This document shows, one piece after another, positions 10,017-43,450 of a stretch of 57,417 bases of DNA. The DNA lies in contig ONWU01000004.1 of the NCBI GenBank assembly GCA_900321655.1, positions 1 to 57,417 on the forward strand, read 5' to 3'. How positions within the stretch are numbered: position 1 is the stretch's first letter; every line of letters begins with the position of its first letter. Origin of the DNA: an uncultured Bacteroidales bacterium. Lineage in GTDB: Bacteria; Bacteroidota; Bacteroidia; Bacteroidales; UBA932. The notes beneath the pieces are model-generated. The model was not told the origin of the DNA. It did no database searches and saw only the letters and a list, made by a program, of their open reading frames with translations. Made by a program: the position numbers and the translations under genes.

Positions 10017-11789
10017 TTATTTGAGGCGAATGTGATTGGTGAGTTCGCCACCCACCTTGGAGTGATCTGCAGCCTGATTGTGGAAGAAGAACGTTCCGTT
10101 GAACTTCTTGCTTTCGAACGAGCTGGGATTCGGCTCCGGCTTTACGGGAATCAGGGTATCGGGCAGCGGGGTCATTCCCTTGGAATAAGAACCCGCACCG
10201 GCTTCTACTACCCAGTAATACTTGAGGCCGACGATTCCGTAAAGTGTTCCTTCAGAGTCCATCCAGGAACCAGGGGTCAGGACAGCGGTTCCGTCGGAAC
10301 CAATCACACCGTAAGCAACGGGATTCTCACCGGAATCAACAAAATACGTCTTTCCTCCCTCTACAATCAGTCCGGCCAGGACATCCGTTGCGGGACCATA
10401 AGTGGAATGAGTCCAGGTGCCCAGGGTTTGAGGATAAATGCTGATGGTACCGTCCTCGAAATAGGCAGTAGCGGATAAGCCAAGCTGCTTGGTATCAAGC
10501 CCCTCAAGGCCATCGATATAGTAGGACTGGTTCACATCTTTGGCACTGATGGTAACCACAATCGGATTTTCTTCCTCGGCCGTAGAGCCAAGTATCCAAT
10601 CTCCGATCCAGGCGGTATATGCCTCCGTGGGTTCAGGCTCCTCTTCAACGGTAAATTCAAGGAAGGAATAATAACCCGTGCAGACGCCAGTCTCATCGAC
10701 AGAGAGAATCCACAGCTTGTAATTACCAGGAGCACGCTTTATGGCAACAACGCCTACGGGATCATCATCGGCACTGCTGTAATAGCAGAGGTCTTCCAAC
10801 TTCTTTCCGGCTTTAATTCCGCTGGCCAGATAAGCATTCTCTTCGCAAATCAGGTTCGGGAAAATAAAGGAATTAAGCGCTTCTGTTTCAGCCGAAGTAA
10901 TAAAGTAGTCAAAGTAACCATTAACTCCGGAAACCAGAAAAGCTTCTCTGGTATCTCCATCTATAGCAACGTGGCCATAATATTCCATTTCCCAAGTTCT
11001 ATTCCGAATGGGAACAGTGAAGTCAAAGCCCGCGGCAGTATAGAACTTCTGACCAATTTCGAATTTTCCTTCGCTGACGTCTGCAATCTGAAGGGCGCCT
11101 ACAAAGAAGCCGCTATCGTACAGACAATCCAGGTCGATGTAAGCCTTACCGGTGGCCTCCGTTTCACCAGCCGGGATGACAACGGTCTTGTCGAAGTTGA
11201 AAGCCATCACGGGAACATTTTCGTATCCGGGGAAATCCAACTGGCTGATGGTAACCTCACAGTCTTCCTCGCTGTACATATCCAGACTCACGGTAAAAGT
11301 AGTCTCTCCTTCATCACTATAGCCACTGTCAAAGGCTATCGATACAGTAGAAACACCCTGAAGGAGGATGATATTCACATTGTCGTCTGAAGACATATTG
11401 GCGCCCTTGCAGCTGGTTACCACAAGCTGGGTTTCATACTTACCTTTCGGCAGTTCAGAATTATCCACAGAGACGGTGGTAGATCCCTCCGTTGCGCCGG
11501 CAGGAATAGTAATTGTTCCAGCTGAAACAAGATCTACATCGATAGGCTCGGTATAGGCCTGGGCTATCTGTGTAGCCGGTGCTAAAGTCACAACCACGTC
11601 GTGGTCCTGGGCCTCAGTAAGGGTTGCTGTTACGTTTGCCTTTGCTTCAGTAAAGAAGTCGTCAGCACTGAGGGTAACCATTACGGGCTTCTGGATAGCA
11701 CTGTCGTTATCCTTCTCCTTATTACAGGAGAGGAAAAGGGCAGTAGCAGCCATAGCTACAAAAGCTAATTTGAAGATATTATTTTTCAT
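10017..11789 (-). CDS. Surface lipoprotein in SusC/SusD operon (SusE/F position), unknown fold
   Basis: About 590 residues. The start MKNNIFKLAF gives a clean lipoprotein signal with lipobox FLSC; an in-frame ATG 12 nt further upstream (11801) is possible. The mature protein begins with beta-rich repeats resembling Calx-beta or Ig-like modules (about 40-260). The second half has two stretches with AWIGDW- and GTWTH-like patterns seen in lipid-anchored binding proteins of Sus-type operons. No enzyme motif was found. It is the last gene of the operon, 12 nt after the previous one, and is followed by a strong terminator. The likely role is ligand capture at the cell surface, inferred from position only. 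Confidence 0.8.
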   Translation of the reverse strand: MKNNIFKLAFVAMAATALFLSCNKEKDNDSAIQKPVMVTLSADDFFTEAKANVTATLTEAQDHDVVVTLAPATQIAQAYTEPIDVDLVSAGTITIPAGATEGSTTVSVDNSELPKGKYETQLVVTSCKGANMSSDDNVNIILLQGVSTVSIAFDSGYSDEGETTFTVSLDMYSEEDCEVTISQLDFPGYENVPVMAFNFDKTVVIPAGETEATGKAYIDLDCLYDSGFFVGALQIADVSEGKFEIGQKFYTAAGFDFTVPIRNRTWEMEYYGHVAIDGDTREAFLVSGVNGYFDYFITSAETEALNSFIFPNLICEENAYLASGIKAGKKLEDLCYYSSADDDPVGVVAIKRAPGNYKLWILSVDETGVCTGYYSFLEFTVEEEPEPTEAYTAWIGDWILGSTAEEENPIVVTISAKDVNQSYYIDGLEGLDTKQLGLSATAYFEDGTISIYPQTLGTWTHSTYGPATDVLAGLIVEGGKTYFVDSGENPVAYGVIGSDGTAVLTPGSWMDSEGTLYGIVGLKYYWVVEAGAGSYSKGMTPLPDTLIPVKPEPNPSSFESKKFNGTFFFHNQAADHSKVGGELTNHIRLK

Positions 11790-31964: not shown

Positions 31965-33068
31965 ATGTCTTTAAAATGTGGAATAGTAGGCTTGCCCAAT
32001 GTGGGCAAGTCTACTTTGTTTAACTGCGTAAGCTCTGGTAAAGCCCAGAGCGCCAACTTCCCCTTCTGCACCATAGACCCCAACGTGGGTTCTACCAACG
32101 TGCCCGATAAGCGCCTGGAGGTGCTTACAGACATCTGCCAGCCCAAACGGACCATTCCGGCCACGGTGGAAATCGTGGATATTGCCGGTCTGGTGAAGGG
32201 TGCATCCAAGGGCGAGGGCCTGGGCAACCAGTTCCTGGCCAATATCCGTGAATGTGACGCCATCCTGCACGTGCTCCGCTGCTTTGACGACGGCAATATC
32301 GTGCACGTAGACGGCTCCGTAGACCCTGTCAGGGACAAGGAGGTAGTAGATACCGAGCTCCAGATCAAAGACCTGGAAACGGTGGAAAACCGCATCAAGA
32401 AGGTGGAAAAGATGGCCACCACCGGAGGAGACAAGGAAGCCAAGAAGCTTCTCTCCCTGCTGTTGCGCTATCGCGAGGCTCTGCTGAAGGGCCTCTCCTG
32501 CCGCACCGTGGTGCCGGAGAATGCCGAGGAGGAGCAGATGGCAAAAGACCTCTATCTCCTTACGAACAAGCCCGTGATGTACGTCTGCAATGTGGATGAG
32601 GCATCGGCCGCCAGCGGGAACGCCTATGTAGAGGCCGTCCGCGCTGCTGTATCGGCCGAAAATGCAGAAATCCTGGTGATTGCAGCCAAGACCGAGGCCG
32701 AGATTGCCGAAATCGAAGACTACGAAGACCGTCAGATGTTCCTGGAGGAAATGGGTCTGGAGGAATCCGGCGTGGTACGCCTCATCCAGAGCGCCTACAA
32801 GCTCCTGGGCCTGAGGACCTTCTTCACCGCCGGGGCCGACGAATGCCGCGCCTGGACCATCGTGGCCGGGGACAAAGCCCCCCGCGCCGCCGGTGTCATC
32901 CACACGGACTTCGAACGTGGTTTCATCCGGGCCGAGGTGATCAAGTACGAGGACTTCGTCCAGTACAAGACCGAGGCCGCAGTCCGCGCCGCCGGCAAGA
33001 TGGGCATCGAAGGCAAAGACTACGTGGTCCAGGACGGCGATATCATGCACTTCCTGTTTAATGTTTAA
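31965..33068 (+). CDS. ychF: Ribosome-binding ATPase YchF (OLA1 family)
   Basis: 367 residues. G1 GLPNVGKST near 7-15, G3 DIAGLVKG near 70, and NVDEASA in the G4 position (a non-NKxD motif explains the family's ATP preference). C-terminal TGS domain ends in DGDIMHFLFNV. Length is that of the family. The last 20 or so nucleotides are the left attachment site of an integrated element whose far end repeats this coding end, so the final codons were probably supplied by the element. A hairpin terminator follows at 33114. Confidence 0.97.
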   Translation: MSLKCGIVGLPNVGKSTLFNCVSSGKAQSANFPFCTIDPNVGSTNVPDKRLEVLTDICQPKRTIPATVEIVDIAGLVKGASKGEGLGNQFLANIRECDAILHVLRCFDDGNIVHVDGSVDPVRDKEVVDTELQIKDLETVENRIKKVEKMATTGGDKEAKKLLSLLLRYREALLKGLSCRTVVPENAEEEQMAKDLYLLTNKPVMYVCNVDEASAASGNAYVEAVRAAVSAENAEILVIAAKTEAEIAEIEDYEDRQMFLEEMGLEESGVVRLIQSAYKLLGLRTFFTAGADECRAWTIVAGDKAPRAAGVIHTDFERGFIRAEVIKYEDFVQYKTEAAVRAAGKMGIEGKDYVVQDGDIMHFLFNV

Positions 33069-33170: not shown

Positions 33171-33246
33171 TTGTTACTTTTCGCAAATTTTGTTACTCGT
33201 TTGTTACTCGTTTCGGATTTTTTGCCTATCTTTGTACCCGTAACAA
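33171..33246. repeat. Left arm-type integrase-binding repeats
   Basis: TTGTTAC at 33171, 33190 and 33201, and inverted as GTAACAA at 33240. The last two direct copies lie in TTGTTACTCGTTTGTTACTC, which is almost repeated near the right end. The integrase has an N-terminal arm-binding domain, so these are its likely sites. Confidence 0.65.
33227..33234 (+). promoter_or_regulatory. -7 promoter element for the integrase
   Basis: TATCTTTG, 28 nt before the ATG and lying among the arm-type repeats, so integrase binding could repress its own gene. Confidence 0.55.
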
Positions 33247-40633: not shown

Positions 40634-40675
40634 GGTGCTTTTGTTACCCGTTTGTTACTCGTTTAATTTTGTTAC
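40599..40675. repeat. Right arm-type integrase-binding repeats
   Basis: TTGTTAC at 40599, 40641, 40652 and 40669. The pair at 40641/40652 matches the left-end pair over about 25 nt with one or two changes. Confidence 0.65.
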
Positions 40676-40718
40676 GCGCTATATGTTTGATAATCAAGGG
40701 CAAAAAGGGGTAAATATA

Positions 40719-40740
40719 CATTTCCTGTTTAACGTGTAGG
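40719..40740 (+). repeat. Right attachment site (attR), copy of the ychF tail
   Basis: Encodes His-Phe-Leu-Phe-Asn-Val-stop in the same register as ychF. All codon differences (CAT/CAC, AAC/AAT, GTG/GTT, TAG/TAA) are silent. TTCCTGTTTAA is at 40722-40732, and AAGGGGTAAA lies just inside at 40705-40714. Confidence 0.8.
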
Positions 40741-40763: not shown

Positions 40764-40790
40764 AGAGGTACATACCCGGTATGTGCCTCT
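40764..40790. repeat. Outlying REP-like palindrome
   Basis: Arms AGAGGTACATACC and GGTATGTGCCTCT around a central C, one wobble pair. It lies 24 nt beyond the element's right end, outside the inverted arrays. Confidence 0.65.
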
Positions 40791-40860
40791 TTATTGTTTT
40801 GTCGGGTGATGCAGGACCGCCTGGCACACCCGTGGCGCTGGGGTACCTGTCGCATCCCGC

Positions 40861-41090
40861 TGCGCTGCTGTACATATCAGGTGTGTACCTGCCAGGCTGT
40901 GACCTTTTGCTTCGTTCTCTGGGGGTGGGGTGCACATACCGGACATGTACACGGAAAGTGCCCTGCAGTGCGGTACGCGTGTACATACCCTTCGAAAATC
41001 AGCCAAAATCGACTTTTTAGGAGAGGTATGTACATCTGCAGGCCCTTCTACGGCAGATTTCTGGTACATACCCGGTATGTACAACAAGAC
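40861..41090. repeat. REP-like palindrome array A (inverted partner of array B)
   Basis: Units: degenerate at 40870-40888, imperfect at 40930-40952, a split unit with arms GTACATACC (40981-40989) and GGTATGTAC (41025-41033) around a 35-nt loop, and a perfect GTACATACCCGGTATGTAC at 41064-41082. The 57 nt at 40934-40990 are identical to the complement of 43304-43360. Together with the outlying unit this fills the non-coding stretch between the element and the transposase. Confidence 0.8.
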
Positions 41091-41153
41091 GCCGGAACTG
41101 GCGCCGCCTCTGGTTCTCAATCTCAGGGCGTCACATCCCCGCTATGTACCACC

Positions 41154-42077
41154 CTATAGGACCAGACACCGCTTGATTTGGTCAGAGTTGTAGCAATAAT
41201 ACTTGTAGAGCGCATTGGCTATTTCCATTTTCTCCTTCTGGGAAAGCAGGTATACGGAAGGCTTACGATACTTTGGAACAAACTGATTATCAATAATGGA
41301 GCACAGTTCCAAATCCGTTATGGACGCCGTACGAACTCGGCTTTTTTCGTTCCGGAGCAGATCGGCCAAAGAGACTCCGCCTGTCTTGATAAGCGGAGCC
41401 TCAACACTTTCCAGCGTGAATGGAGACGACACGTTTTCATCGGCCTGTTCCTTGATCCAGTCTTCGGTGCTCTTTCTTCCCAGATAGTAGTTGAACGCCG
41501 CAGCTGTACCGTATGCCGCCTCCACGGCTCCGATATCCAGCACCGAGGCCGATAGGAACACGCCATTACGCCCCATTTTCCACGAGGGATCGAACTCCGC
41601 CCTTCTGGGCAAGACCGCTTTGATTTCTTCATATGTGAGCAAGGGCACCTCCAGAAGCTGCTTTTTGCCCAGTTCCCCCTGGAAGTAATCATTAGCCGAT
41701 GAATAGGGATATTCAAAGGGCGTGGAGGAGACTCCGTGATGCGGCGCGTTGGTTACGACATAGGTGACGGCCGCTATAAAATGCTTTGTACCAGAGATTT
41801 CTTGAACATATGCGTCCGGTTCACCGAAGCTTCCCTTGCGATGGTACTTATGGTTGAAATACTTAGTGTGTGACTCCCTGAACGTACGAATCAGCTCCGT
41901 TGGTACTTTGGTCCTGTAGCAGCCGTGATGATGGTCGCTCATATTTGCGTACGCATAGCAGGCGCTGTCTGTTTTGTATAAACTGGAACACAGGCTGTTA
42001 AAGGCGTGATGCATATCCTCTTCATCCCGAAAGAGGACTTCTTTGTGGGAGGTAAAGCAAAGATGATAATTAGGCAT
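41154..42077 (-). CDS. REP-associated tyrosine transposase-like protein (Y1/HUH family) with C-terminal extension
   Basis: 307 residues. The N-terminal 135 residues fit the Y1 transposase fold: metal-binding His pair in MSDHHHGCYR (H49, H51), KYHRKGSFGEPDAYVQEIS, and TYVVTNAPHHG (Y106 the likely nucleophile), the counterpart of the Y-I-x-x-N-P motif of RAYT proteins, then FEYPYSSANDYF. Residues 140-307 are an extension that I do not recognise. RAYT proteins nick and move REP palindromes in other bacteria. Here palindrome arrays flank the gene. It starts 12 nt after the EEP gene on the same strand, so probably one message. Confidence 0.85.
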   Translation of the reverse strand: MPNYHLCFTSHKEVLFRDEEDMHHAFNSLCSSLYKTDSACYAYANMSDHHHGCYRTKVPTELIRTFRESHTKYFNHKYHRKGSFGEPDAYVQEISGTKHFIAAVTYVVTNAPHHGVSSTPFEYPYSSANDYFQGELGKKQLLEVPLLTYEEIKAVLPRRAEFDPSWKMGRNGVFLSASVLDIGAVEAAYGTAAAFNYYLGRKSTEDWIKEQADENVSSPFTLESVEAPLIKTGGVSLADLLRNEKSRVRTASITDLELCSIIDNQFVPKYRKPSVYLLSQKEKMEIANALYKYYCYNSDQIKRCLVL

Positions 42078-42089
42078 ATGGAGAAGTGT

Positions 42090-43046
42090 TTAAGGCCGAT
42101 ATACAACGCCCCAGATGGGGCAGTGGTCCGAGACGCCTCCCAGATAGCGGGGACCGGAATAGGTTCTGAGGGGTTTGAAGCCGGCGTGCCCGGTGTCCCG
42201 CGTCATCAGGAAAGGGACTTGCAGGATCTTCATCTGCCCCTTTAGCTGTTCCGAAGCAAAAAACATATCTATCAGTTCCCACGCTCCGTCATACTTGATG
42301 GTGCCGAGCCCTTTTTGAAACAGGGGCCCGGCCCAGTTTTGCAGGGTGGGCTCCAATAGCTTGTAAACCGGATTGGCGGGCGTATCATTGAAATCCCCCA
42401 TCGCTACAACGGACTGTACACCAAGCGATTGCAGAGAATCGGCCAGAAAACGCAGCCTTTCTACCGCTGCCTTTCGCCGGGGTTCCGACTGCTCCAGGCC
42501 CCCGTACTTGGAGGGATGGTGGTTCACCAATAGGGCGATTTCCTGCCCGGTGGCGCTTTCGAATCGGGCCGCCAGGATGTCCCTCGTGGCCAGGACAGTG
42601 GAATCCGGCGCATACAGGTGGCAGGGTTTTGCCTGGAGAAGGCGCAGTCGGGAAGGCCGATACAACAGCGCCACATCAATCCCGCGGGGGTCCGGCGAAT
42701 CGAAGTGTACCACCTTGTAGTCCAGTTTCCGGAGGGCGGTTGTTTGCAGCAGGCGCCTGAGTACAAAGCTGTTCTCCACTTCACACACGCCGATGGCATC
42801 CGGAAGGCCGCCCTCCCGGGAGGCCGCCCAAAGGACGCCCTTGGCAATGGCATTGCACTTGGTCTGAAAGCGCTTTCTGGTCCAGTGCCTTTCACCTCGG
42901 GAGGAGAATTCGGCATCGGAGGTTCCTGTTCCGGAATCGATCCAGTCGAAACTGTTTTCCAGATTCCAAAACATGAGCCGAAGGGTGTCTGGCGGGGGTG
43001 CCAGCAGGAGCAGAAGCGTGCTCAAGAGGGTTACCAATACGTTCAT
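42090..43046 (-). CDS. Secreted endonuclease/exonuclease/phosphatase (EEP) family protein
   Basis: 318 residues from ATG 43046; the frame is open to a TTG 6 nt further upstream. A hydrophobic leader (VLVTLLSTLLLLLAPPP) suggests export. EEP motifs in order: MFWNLENSFDW (metal-site Asn), GVCEVENSF (Glu), RGIDVALLYRP, LLVNHHPSKYGG (His), VAMGDFNDTP (Asp and Asn), and GVSDHCPIW (Asp-His). The catalytic set is complete, so nuclease or phosphodiesterase activity in the envelope is likely; the substrate is unknown. First gene of an apparent EEP-transposase pair within inverted repeat arrays. Confidence 0.9.
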   Translation of the reverse strand: MNVLVTLLSTLLLLLAPPPDTLRLMFWNLENSFDWIDSGTGTSDAEFSSRGERHWTRKRFQTKCNAIAKGVLWAASREGGLPDAIGVCEVENSFVLRRLLQTTALRKLDYKVVHFDSPDPRGIDVALLYRPSRLRLLQAKPCHLYAPDSTVLATRDILAARFESATGQEIALLVNHHPSKYGGLEQSEPRRKAAVERLRFLADSLQSLGVQSVVAMGDFNDTPANPVYKLLEPTLQNWAGPLFQKGLGTIKYDGAWELIDMFFASEQLKGQMKILQVPFLMTRDTGHAGFKPLRTYSGPRYLGGVSDHCPIWGVVYRP

Positions 43047-43049
43047 ATC

Positions 43050-43057
43050 CAAAGGTA
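43050..43057 (-). promoter_or_regulatory. -7 promoter element for the EEP gene
   Basis: CAAAGGTA on the plus strand is TACCTTTG on the minus strand, only 3 nt before the ATG; the mRNA should start at or about the start codon. Confidence 0.5.
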
Positions 43058-43096
43058 AAAGAACGTTTTGGATTTGATGATCAGAAACAGAAATAC

Positions 43097-43124
43097 TTTT
43101 TCAACCGATTTTTCGGTGGAAAAA
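43097..43124. terminator. Hairpin between EEP promoter and array B
   Basis: TTTTTC-ACCGA pairs with TCGGT-GAAAAA around a short T-rich loop, one mismatch. Flanked by A/T runs on both strands, it could terminate in either direction. No gene ends into it, so it may insulate the promoter from array B. Confidence 0.4.
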
Positions 43125-43204
43125 TATATTTTTTTGGATGTTTGGGCAAACAGCGATTTTTAACGGGTTACTGACAGGACGGATCAGTAAATTCTTGTTT
43201 GACG

Positions 43205-43450
43205 TCGTGTTGCACATACCGGGTATGTACCAAGAAAAAGCCGCAGAGGGGCCTGTAGATGTACATACCTCCCACAAAAAGCCGATTTTAGCCATTTTTC
43301 GATGGGTATGTACACGCGTACCGCACTGCAGGGCACTTTCCGTGTACATGTCCGGTATGTACAAGCAGCACAGCGTACGTGTATCCCCACGCACCGAAGC
43401 AGAAGCCCCCTCCTCGGCAGGTACATACCGGGTATGTACAAGCAGCGCAG
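43205..43450. repeat. REP-like palindrome array B upstream of galK
   Basis: Units at 43212-43230 (one mismatch), arms at 43261-43269 and 43305-43313 around a 35-nt loop, 43344-43362 (two mismatches), a degenerate one near 43375-43393, and perfect GTACATACCGGGTATGTAC at 43421-43439. Reverse-complement copy of array A in unit order, with the same loop length in the split unit. Confidence 0.8.

Follow-up and report, generated by a model that had tools for sequence, protein, structure and literature searches.

A probable REPtron in an uncultured Bacteroidales bacterium: a C-terminally extended RAYT-like gene flanked by REPIN-like three-hairpin modules

The window analysed here, a stretch of 57,417 nucleotides (nt) of contig ONWU01000004.1 from an uncultured Bacteroidales bacterium (assembly GCA_900321655.1), holds a gene for a protein resembling the repetitive extragenic palindromic (REP)-associated tyrosine transposases (RAYTs), set between two inverted arrays of short palindromes. 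This locus is probably a REPtron, with the gene of a RAYT-type single-strand DNA transposase accompanied on both sides by its own REP-like elements. The protein belongs to the Y1 HUH fold family, and in related genomes its gene is linked to hairpin modules of fixed architecture whose half-sites change in concert and which recur in genome-specific form. One site is occupied by such a module in some genomes and empty in another.

Results

A long and divergent Y1 HUH protein

The protein is encoded at 41154..42077 on the minus strand and is 307 amino acids (aa) long. It has an HxH motif (H49, H51) and a tyrosine at Y106, and about 170 residues make up its C-terminal extension. In the 15 homologues aligned, H49, H51, Y106, N110, H113 and H114 are invariant. 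The clade carries a Y---N--HH motif in which N stands at +4 in 15/15 and is followed by P in 2/15, and the middle residue of the HuH motif is polar (H or T) in 8/15 instead of hydrophobic as usual. Members of the clade are about 300-310 aa long; the initial annotation had contrasted the extension with the short classical RAYT layout.

Family models place the protein only distantly. A Pfam search found no match at E 0.001 and a profile search of PDB sequences returned nothing relevant, while the NCBIfam model REP_Tyr_transpos (NF047646) matches the protein with E 2.3e-5 at 24.3 bits. The same model matches 5/15 clade members at E <=0.01, and Pfam Y1_Tnp matches one of the 15. The AlphaFold model of the protein (mean pLDDT 89.6) has as its top structural match in PDB 4er8_A, the Escherichia coli RAYT with a REP hairpin (E 1e-4; TM 0.66 by target length and 0.37 by query), followed by the transposases of IS608 and ISDra2. 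The structural matches span the Y1 part only, and the C-terminal ~170 residues are mostly helical in the model. By sequence and model, the window protein is related to the REP transposase of E. coli but is longer and has diverged from it. The window's genome (G000; 2.1 Mb, 82% complete) does not carry the gene in a second, near-identical copy; two further RAYT-like genes lie at C29:32712-33611 (38% identical) and C47:3370-3954 (27%).

Inverted arrays built on a 151-nt module

The palindrome GTACATACCNGGTATGTAC, searched with <=3 mismatches, occurs at seven sites in the window (40768, 40870, 40932, 41064, 43212, 43344 and 43421) and at none in each of 100 shuffles, so the inverted palindrome arrays described in the initial annotation are real. 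They form an inverted repeat with 161-nt arms (40931-41091 and 43203-43363) that are 88% complementary, and a weaker outer pair (40869-40924 and 43385-43440) is 73% complementary. The 57-nt identity claimed between the arrays is exact, 40934-40990 being the complement of 43304-43360, and the split hairpins of both arrays keep a 35-nt loop in spite of changed sequence (26/35 bases alike).

The unit is not the tetrad proposed earlier, however, but a 151-nt module, present in two copies together with single hairpins. The core of each array is one such module, consisting of a short hairpin, a split hairpin with a 35-nt loop and a short hairpin reversed. In the left module (40932..41082, plus strand) the short hairpins occupy 40932-40950 and 41064-41082 and the split arms 40980-40989 and 41025-41034; in the right module, which is inverted (43212..43362, minus strand), they occupy 43212-43230 and 43344-43362, with split arms at 43260-43269 and 43305-43314. 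Both were delimited by the GTACATACCNGGTATGTAC search and by comparison of modules, and in both the short hairpins start 132 nt apart (40932/41064 and 43212/43344). A covariance model scores the left module at 88.0 bits and the right one at 89.1 bits, each being itself part of the training set. Outside the modules, the GTACATACCNGGTATGTAC search found three single short hairpins, at 40768..40786 (one mismatch), 40870..40888 (two mismatches) and 43421..43439 (exact), and the inverted-repeat analysis a degenerate one near 41129-41147.

Half-sites change in concert

A total of 62 modules were collected, of which 52 entered alignment A2; ten were excluded by eye as near-duplicates or orthologous copies, and one duplicate stayed in, L246 being the reverse complement of L087:10959-11111. 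The three local hairpins pair 89.1% of cells in this alignment, and pairing falls to 24-52% when the partner is slid by 1-3 columns. Cells changed on both sides number 74, versus 36.0 in shuffles with 0/500 as high, although this statistic is not an independent probability given related sequences and the duplicate; the pairs with change on both sides number 10, which is not above shuffles (mean 10.1). All six half-sites of the module co-vary. Since they share one sequence, local and long-range pairing are indistinguishable, the degrees of pairing being similar for the three local hairpins and for long-range outer pairing, which RNAalifold prefers. Fold prediction, proposed as a check in the initial annotation, gives one long structure for the left window module as DNA (z -6.2). 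In the GTAC part of the split hairpin a mismatch is frequent (columns 54/103, unpaired in 32/52), a feature reminiscent of the bulge in classical REPs. Additional spacer stems (AAA...TTT) are marginal: at the best offsets 101 to 165 of 2000 shuffles reach an equally high value, and at the remaining ones the values fall below the shuffled mean.

Linked and dispersed modules in related genomes

Related RAYT loci were the best 80 of at least 277 relatives, all named Bacteroidales or Bacteroidia and mostly from rumen or gut metagenome assemblies. Flanks of 600 nt were compared at 77 of them, three with less than 300 nt on one side being excluded. A repeat common to both flanks was found at 54 of the 77 loci versus 0/370 control windows from the same loci, and the best shared repeat is direct in 45 and inverted in nine. 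The 11 loci whose flanks were folded differ in stem sequence, and in several of them the stems are part of a nested fold-back, which is similar in size from locus to locus. Searching for near-perfect palindromes with loops <=6 nt detected little in most of the relatives, since the loops of their hairpins are longer. Hairpins of type ATTCCCGGCTTGACCGGGAAT, which resemble CGTC-tagged repeats, occur within 3 kb of the RAYT in L050, L057, L060, L064 and L069.

Twelve of the related loci, L081-L091 and L147, are orthologous to the window locus, and most of their genomes carry recurring palindromes of another sequence, which together with the 4er8_A match upholds the initial assignment to a REP/RAYT (REPIN) system. 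With <=3 mismatches, GTACAAGTCTCGCTTGTAC has 2-18 sites per strand in nine of the 12 ortholog genomes (reversed control 0-1); it is absent from the genomes of L081, L086 and L090 and from the window's genome, and among nine other genomes eight have none and one has a single site. There are 146 such sites in ten genomes, and 116 of them form 58 head-to-head pairs spaced 131-134 nt, the spacing being 132 or 133 in 54 pairs, as it is 132 in the window modules. The pairs lie on one to seven contigs per genome, with RAYT-adjacent pairs counted. Forty modules were fetched, two adjoining a RAYT (L212, L246) and 38 not; most have the central split palindrome while spacers have diverged. Their ends are sharp, with T before 32 and A after 30 of the 35 modules used for the flank-base count, and little is conserved beyond.

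Other stems occur as well. The pattern GTAC[AG]CTGCTCCTG[CT]GTAC forms pairs at 132-134 nt in G117 (three, one beside the RAYT) and in G102 (four). Its background is higher, as 17 of 22 genomes have a match and the reversed control gives as many as three. Three of 12 genomes carry a 138-nt module that belongs to a more distant RAYT (L155). Apart from copies at the flanks, two in G101, of which one is close to a contig end, and four in G108 lack a RAYT match within about 1.5 kb to each side; the window's genome has one weak match to this module. The covariance model of the 151-nt module matched seven of 61 genomes (G000, G003, G028, G034, G019, G015 and G017), its genome counts being lower bounds given stricter filters and at most 50 candidates scored per genome. 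G000 and G003 were in the training set. G028, G034 and G019 were outside it, and each combines module matches with a full-length RAYT of the clade.

Distribution of the palindrome and of the clade

The window's genome has 13 sites per strand for GTACATACCNGGTATGTAC with <=3 mismatches (reversed-pattern control 0), compared with 0-3 per genome, the range of the reversed control there, in 21 other genomes, so the palindrome count proposed in the initial annotation came out in favour of an enriched element. With <=2 mismatches, three of 100 relatives have one site each and 97 have none. Seven of the 13 sites are those of the window; two are on C31 and one each on C12, C16, C57 and C25. Dispersal in this genome applies to these six sites and not to modules: none of the six has a second copy (<=4 mismatches) at module spacing, and modules away from the gene were seen only in relatives. 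A diverged palindrome lies about 30 nt upstream of the site at C31:41207. In this genome the covariance model finds the two window modules and one weak place on C16.

In whole genomes, every full-length homologue of the RAYT among the matches listed (about 35-66% identity) belongs to the same genus as the window. When 295 genomes representing 183 genera of the order were searched with a profile at E <=1e-20, the window's genome alone was matched; one other genome of the window's genus was included, with no match there. The C-terminally extended RAYT clade has thus far been seen in one genus.

Turnover at single sites

At one convergent intergenic site, G115 and G103 carry a module, whereas G117 has only 20 nt there. 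G118 has a different hairpin at this site, and G113 an unrelated tandem palindrome array, TCTGTGTCCC...GGGACACAGA (L277, C25), apparently a different REP-like family. The interval is 146 nt in G114, the flanks lie more than 2 kb apart in G102 and G119, and G121 has no match to the flanks. A second variable position is upstream of a gene that neighbours the RAYT gene and encodes a protein of the endonuclease/exonuclease/phosphatase family (EEP). L085, L087 and L088 lack the module that L082, L083, L084, L091 and L147 have there, and the alleles also differ outside the module. In compared DNA that is about 91% identical, L083 has a single module and L084 a tandem of three. The occupied and empty states of the convergent intergenic site are consistent with, but do not prove, RAYT-driven movement in trans.

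The orthologous locus and inversion of the block

The initial annotation placed a Y1 protein between the arrays, which is correct for the 307-aa open reading frame (ORF), but it is not alone there. The EEP gene (42090..43052, minus strand; Exo_endo_phos, PF19580 E 1.3e-65) lies in the same array-bounded block (40764..43450, minus strand) as a syntenic neighbour, adjoining the RAYT gene in 12/12 orthologous loci. In these loci EEP is followed by the RAYT on one strand, with galK on that strand in 11, and identity to the window proteins is 47-62% for EEP and 49-53% for the RAYT. The gene ychF is on the other side of the locus and was located in eight loci besides the query source L088, on the strand of EEP in six and reversed in L081 and L086. 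The RAYT gene has this syntenic position in 13 genomes, those of the 12 named loci and the window's own, and additionally in G028. The RAYT match of L147 (10001-10929) breaks at 10519 while coding-like sequence goes on, by a frameshift or an assembly error.

Since ychF (31965-33065) and galK share a strand in the window while EEP and the RAYT are reversed, the gene order indicates that the array-bounded block is inverted there; its orientation is flipped relative to galK in 11 orthologous loci and relative to ychF in 7/9. Recombination between the inverted arrays would plausibly account for this. G028, the nearest relative, has the RAYT in two contig-end pieces (66% identity over residues 1-207 and 61% over 166-307), the flipped order of the window, and its half-sites are of the GTACATACAG type. 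That G028 shares the window's orientation weakens the idea of phase variation through flipping of the block.

The palindrome differs among these loci in its inner letters while many keep the GTAC...GTAC frame. It is GTACAAGTCTCGCTTGTAC in L082, L085, L088, L089, L091 and L147, while L083 and L084 have a GTACAAATCTCGTTTGTAC-like form and L087 has GTACGCTGCTCCTGTGTAC; the 151-nt module form was not found in L081, L086 and L090, of which L081 and L086 have looser long-loop pairs. Related hairpin modules use at least five half-sites, namely GTACATACC, GTACATACAG, GTACAAGTCTC, GTACAAATCTC and GTAC[AG]CTGCTC.

Discussion

A model for the module and its transposase

The mobile element would be a REPIN-like module of about 151 nt whose ends read T-GTAC ... 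GTAC-A. Its two short palindromes are set head to head, a fixed distance apart, with a split palindrome of the same half-site between them. When single-stranded, as in the lagging-strand template or a cruciform, the module probably folds, and the RAYT would bind the hairpin, nick it with Y106 and, acting in trans, transfer or copy the module to sites elsewhere that are mostly intergenic. The half-site that is read would be specific to each transposase lineage, so that all six half-sites of a module would change together.

Several observations weigh against this model. At 24.3 bits the window protein is far from the cut-off of 80 of the curated RAYT model NF047646. No shared flank repeat was found at 23/77 loci, and copy number is low, with 1-12 modules per genome in nine ortholog genomes (lower bounds). 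The modules detected in the window's genome all adjoin the RAYT gene. G015 and G017, the latter 95% complete and with a strong module match (E 1.5e-20), have modules but only distant RAYT homologues (21-24%), so that these are either orphan modules or cases of a missed gene. There is no conserved GTAG foot, GTAG or CTAC occurring anywhere in 9/62 modules. With a codon-position filter, 16/40 fetched modules overlap coding-like ORFs, compared with 132/156 controls (22/40 and 132/157 in a cruder test inflated by spurious ORFs). No target duplication or clean insertion junction was seen at the sites compared. Finally, the RAYT of L087 is 93% identical to that of L088, yet its flanking stem is different; because such near-identical proteins have different stems, strict reading of the inner stem by the RAYT is not proved.

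A tentative extension, which we regard as possible but doubtful, is that the RAYT reads the geometry of the folded module (the T-GTAC frame, the 132-nt spacing and the central split hairpin) more than the letters of the inner stem. A swap of the inner half-site could then involve all six arms simultaneously, as in the comparison of L087 with L088, and the persistence of the layout beside diverged spacers would be explained. The locus would in that case exemplify a REP system evolving by stem switching, with a C-terminal domain absent in classical RAYTs.

Alternative explanations

The long inverted repeats at both ends of the 2.7-kb block and its inversion relative to its neighbours in the window could suggest that the block itself is the mobile unit, a transposon carrying RAYT and EEP with the arrays as its terminal inverted repeats. 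This seems quite improbable, as EEP and RAYT are adjacent in 12 other genomes (with galK in 11), which points to inheritance in place, the best flank repeat is direct in 45/54 related loci, and modules recur without the genes; a composite transposon was rejected on the adjacency in those 12 relatives. Slightly more improbable still is that the palindromes are operators or terminators of neighbouring genes and unrelated to the Y1 protein. Such a role would fit their symmetry, their lying outside coding-like ORFs more often than controls do, and the one case between converging genes. However, their sequence varies between genomes while the architecture and the linkage to the gene stay, GTACATACCNGGTATGTAC is absent from 97/100 relatives at <=2 mismatches, and the modules are fixed-length units with sharp ends. 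Plain operators or terminators were ruled out on co-change and gene linkage.

It is harder to set aside, though still rather unlikely, that the system is the same but the RAYT is now inactive, the modules being old copies kept for some benefit to the host, for instance as cruciforms, terminators or topoisomerase sites. Only in the matter of present activity does this reading depart from the REPtron interpretation, with which it otherwise overlaps. The gene is vertically inherited, half-sites and spacing persist while spacers have diverged, and no modules lie away from the gene in the window's genome, all of which an inactive RAYT would accommodate. Against it stand the occupied, empty and replaced states of one site, the module upstream of EEP in 5/12 orthologs and its absence in at least three, and the one versus three tandem modules of L083 and L084. 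We favour the REPtron interpretation.

Relation to described systems

The E. coli TnpA_REP/REPtron (group 2, subclass 2.2; 4er8) resembles the present locus in its Y1 HUH core and in having cognate palindromes on both sides of the gene and elsewhere in the genome. Here, however, the protein has about 170 more C-terminal residues, the short palindromes are near-perfect, copy number is low, and no GTAG foot is conserved; where canonical GTAG REPs have GT[AG]G at the 5' foot of the hairpin, only the flanking T and A are strongly conserved in the 35 modules. The IS200/IS605 elements (IS608, ISDra2), which have one subterminal hairpin per end, share the catalytic fold, but the present protein lacks the Y---Q motif and the window's genome a near-identical gene copy, arrays being found instead.

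The REPINs of Pseudomonas fluorescens SBW25 are inverted doublets with fixed spacing and compensatory change (PMC3116915); like the modules described here they have a variable spacer, are dispersed and are linked to a RAYT. They differ in spacing (71 or 110 there, 132-133 here), in copy number (hundreds there, 1-12 here), and in that the present module has a third, split palindrome with the same half-site in its middle. Both the GTAG requirement and the reading of the loop vary between groups of RAYTs (PMC8266576). RAYT genes between long terminal inverted repeats have been termed TIRYT/TIRtron (PMC3733652). The window arrays are likewise inverted, but in most relatives the flank repeats are direct (45/54), and the repeat here has a fixed three-hairpin layout.

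The closest precedent by phylum is subclass 2.6 (group 5), which in the available text of PMC6006769 comprises Bacteroidetes proteins with atypical flanking structures and copies of these elsewhere in the genome. Its members have a median length of 179 aa and the motif YIH[QN]NP, whereas the present clade has about 300-310 aa and Y---N--HH. Of the class 2 motif Y---NP, the clade keeps Y106 and N110 throughout, with P after N in 2/15. Subclass 1.2, also of Bacteroidetes, shares the HH at +7/+8 after the tyrosine, a conserved C-terminal domain and low copy number; it differs in having Q at +4 (Y---Q--HH) where the clade has N (15/15), in a median length of 148 aa and in generally lacking terminal structures, where the clade has flanking modules. 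Subclasses 2.1 and 2.3, which are long and extended at the C-terminus, have no association with REPs according to the same text. None of the subclasses described in the text available combines a long C-terminal extension with three-hairpin REPIN-like modules and the lack of GTAG. Because atypical REP-like structures of subclass 2.6 have already been reported (PMC6006769), the initial suggestion of an undescribed Bacteroidales REP family can hold for the clade and its module but not for the kind, RAYT/REPIN systems being already known. Among publications screened by title or abstract opening, a scope that left out most subscription papers and all supplements, none on this RAYT clade was found.

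The locus may nevertheless be useful beyond its classification. Synteny anchors a natural series in which a RAYT and its DNA target change together, and this would permit direct swap experiments. Co-change of RAYTs and REPs has been studied mostly in gammaproteobacteria. Since homologues of this RAYT score under the cut-offs of present family models, Bacteroidota may hold more such systems than are counted. Of the 80 loci (L081-L160), 18 have a contig end less than 1000 nt from the RAYT match on one side. Breakage of assemblies at flanking repeats would produce this pattern, and such systems may be missing from many metagenome genomes.

Sequence between ychF and the left array

A 26-nt direct repeat (33188-33213 and 40639-40664; 96%) brackets about 7.5 kb of the window, from ychF to the left array. 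This stretch looks like an integrated element, and two of its proteins have no match in the 80 related loci. Close to the left array, a 23-nt segment at 40716-40738 resembles the 3' end of ychF (83%).

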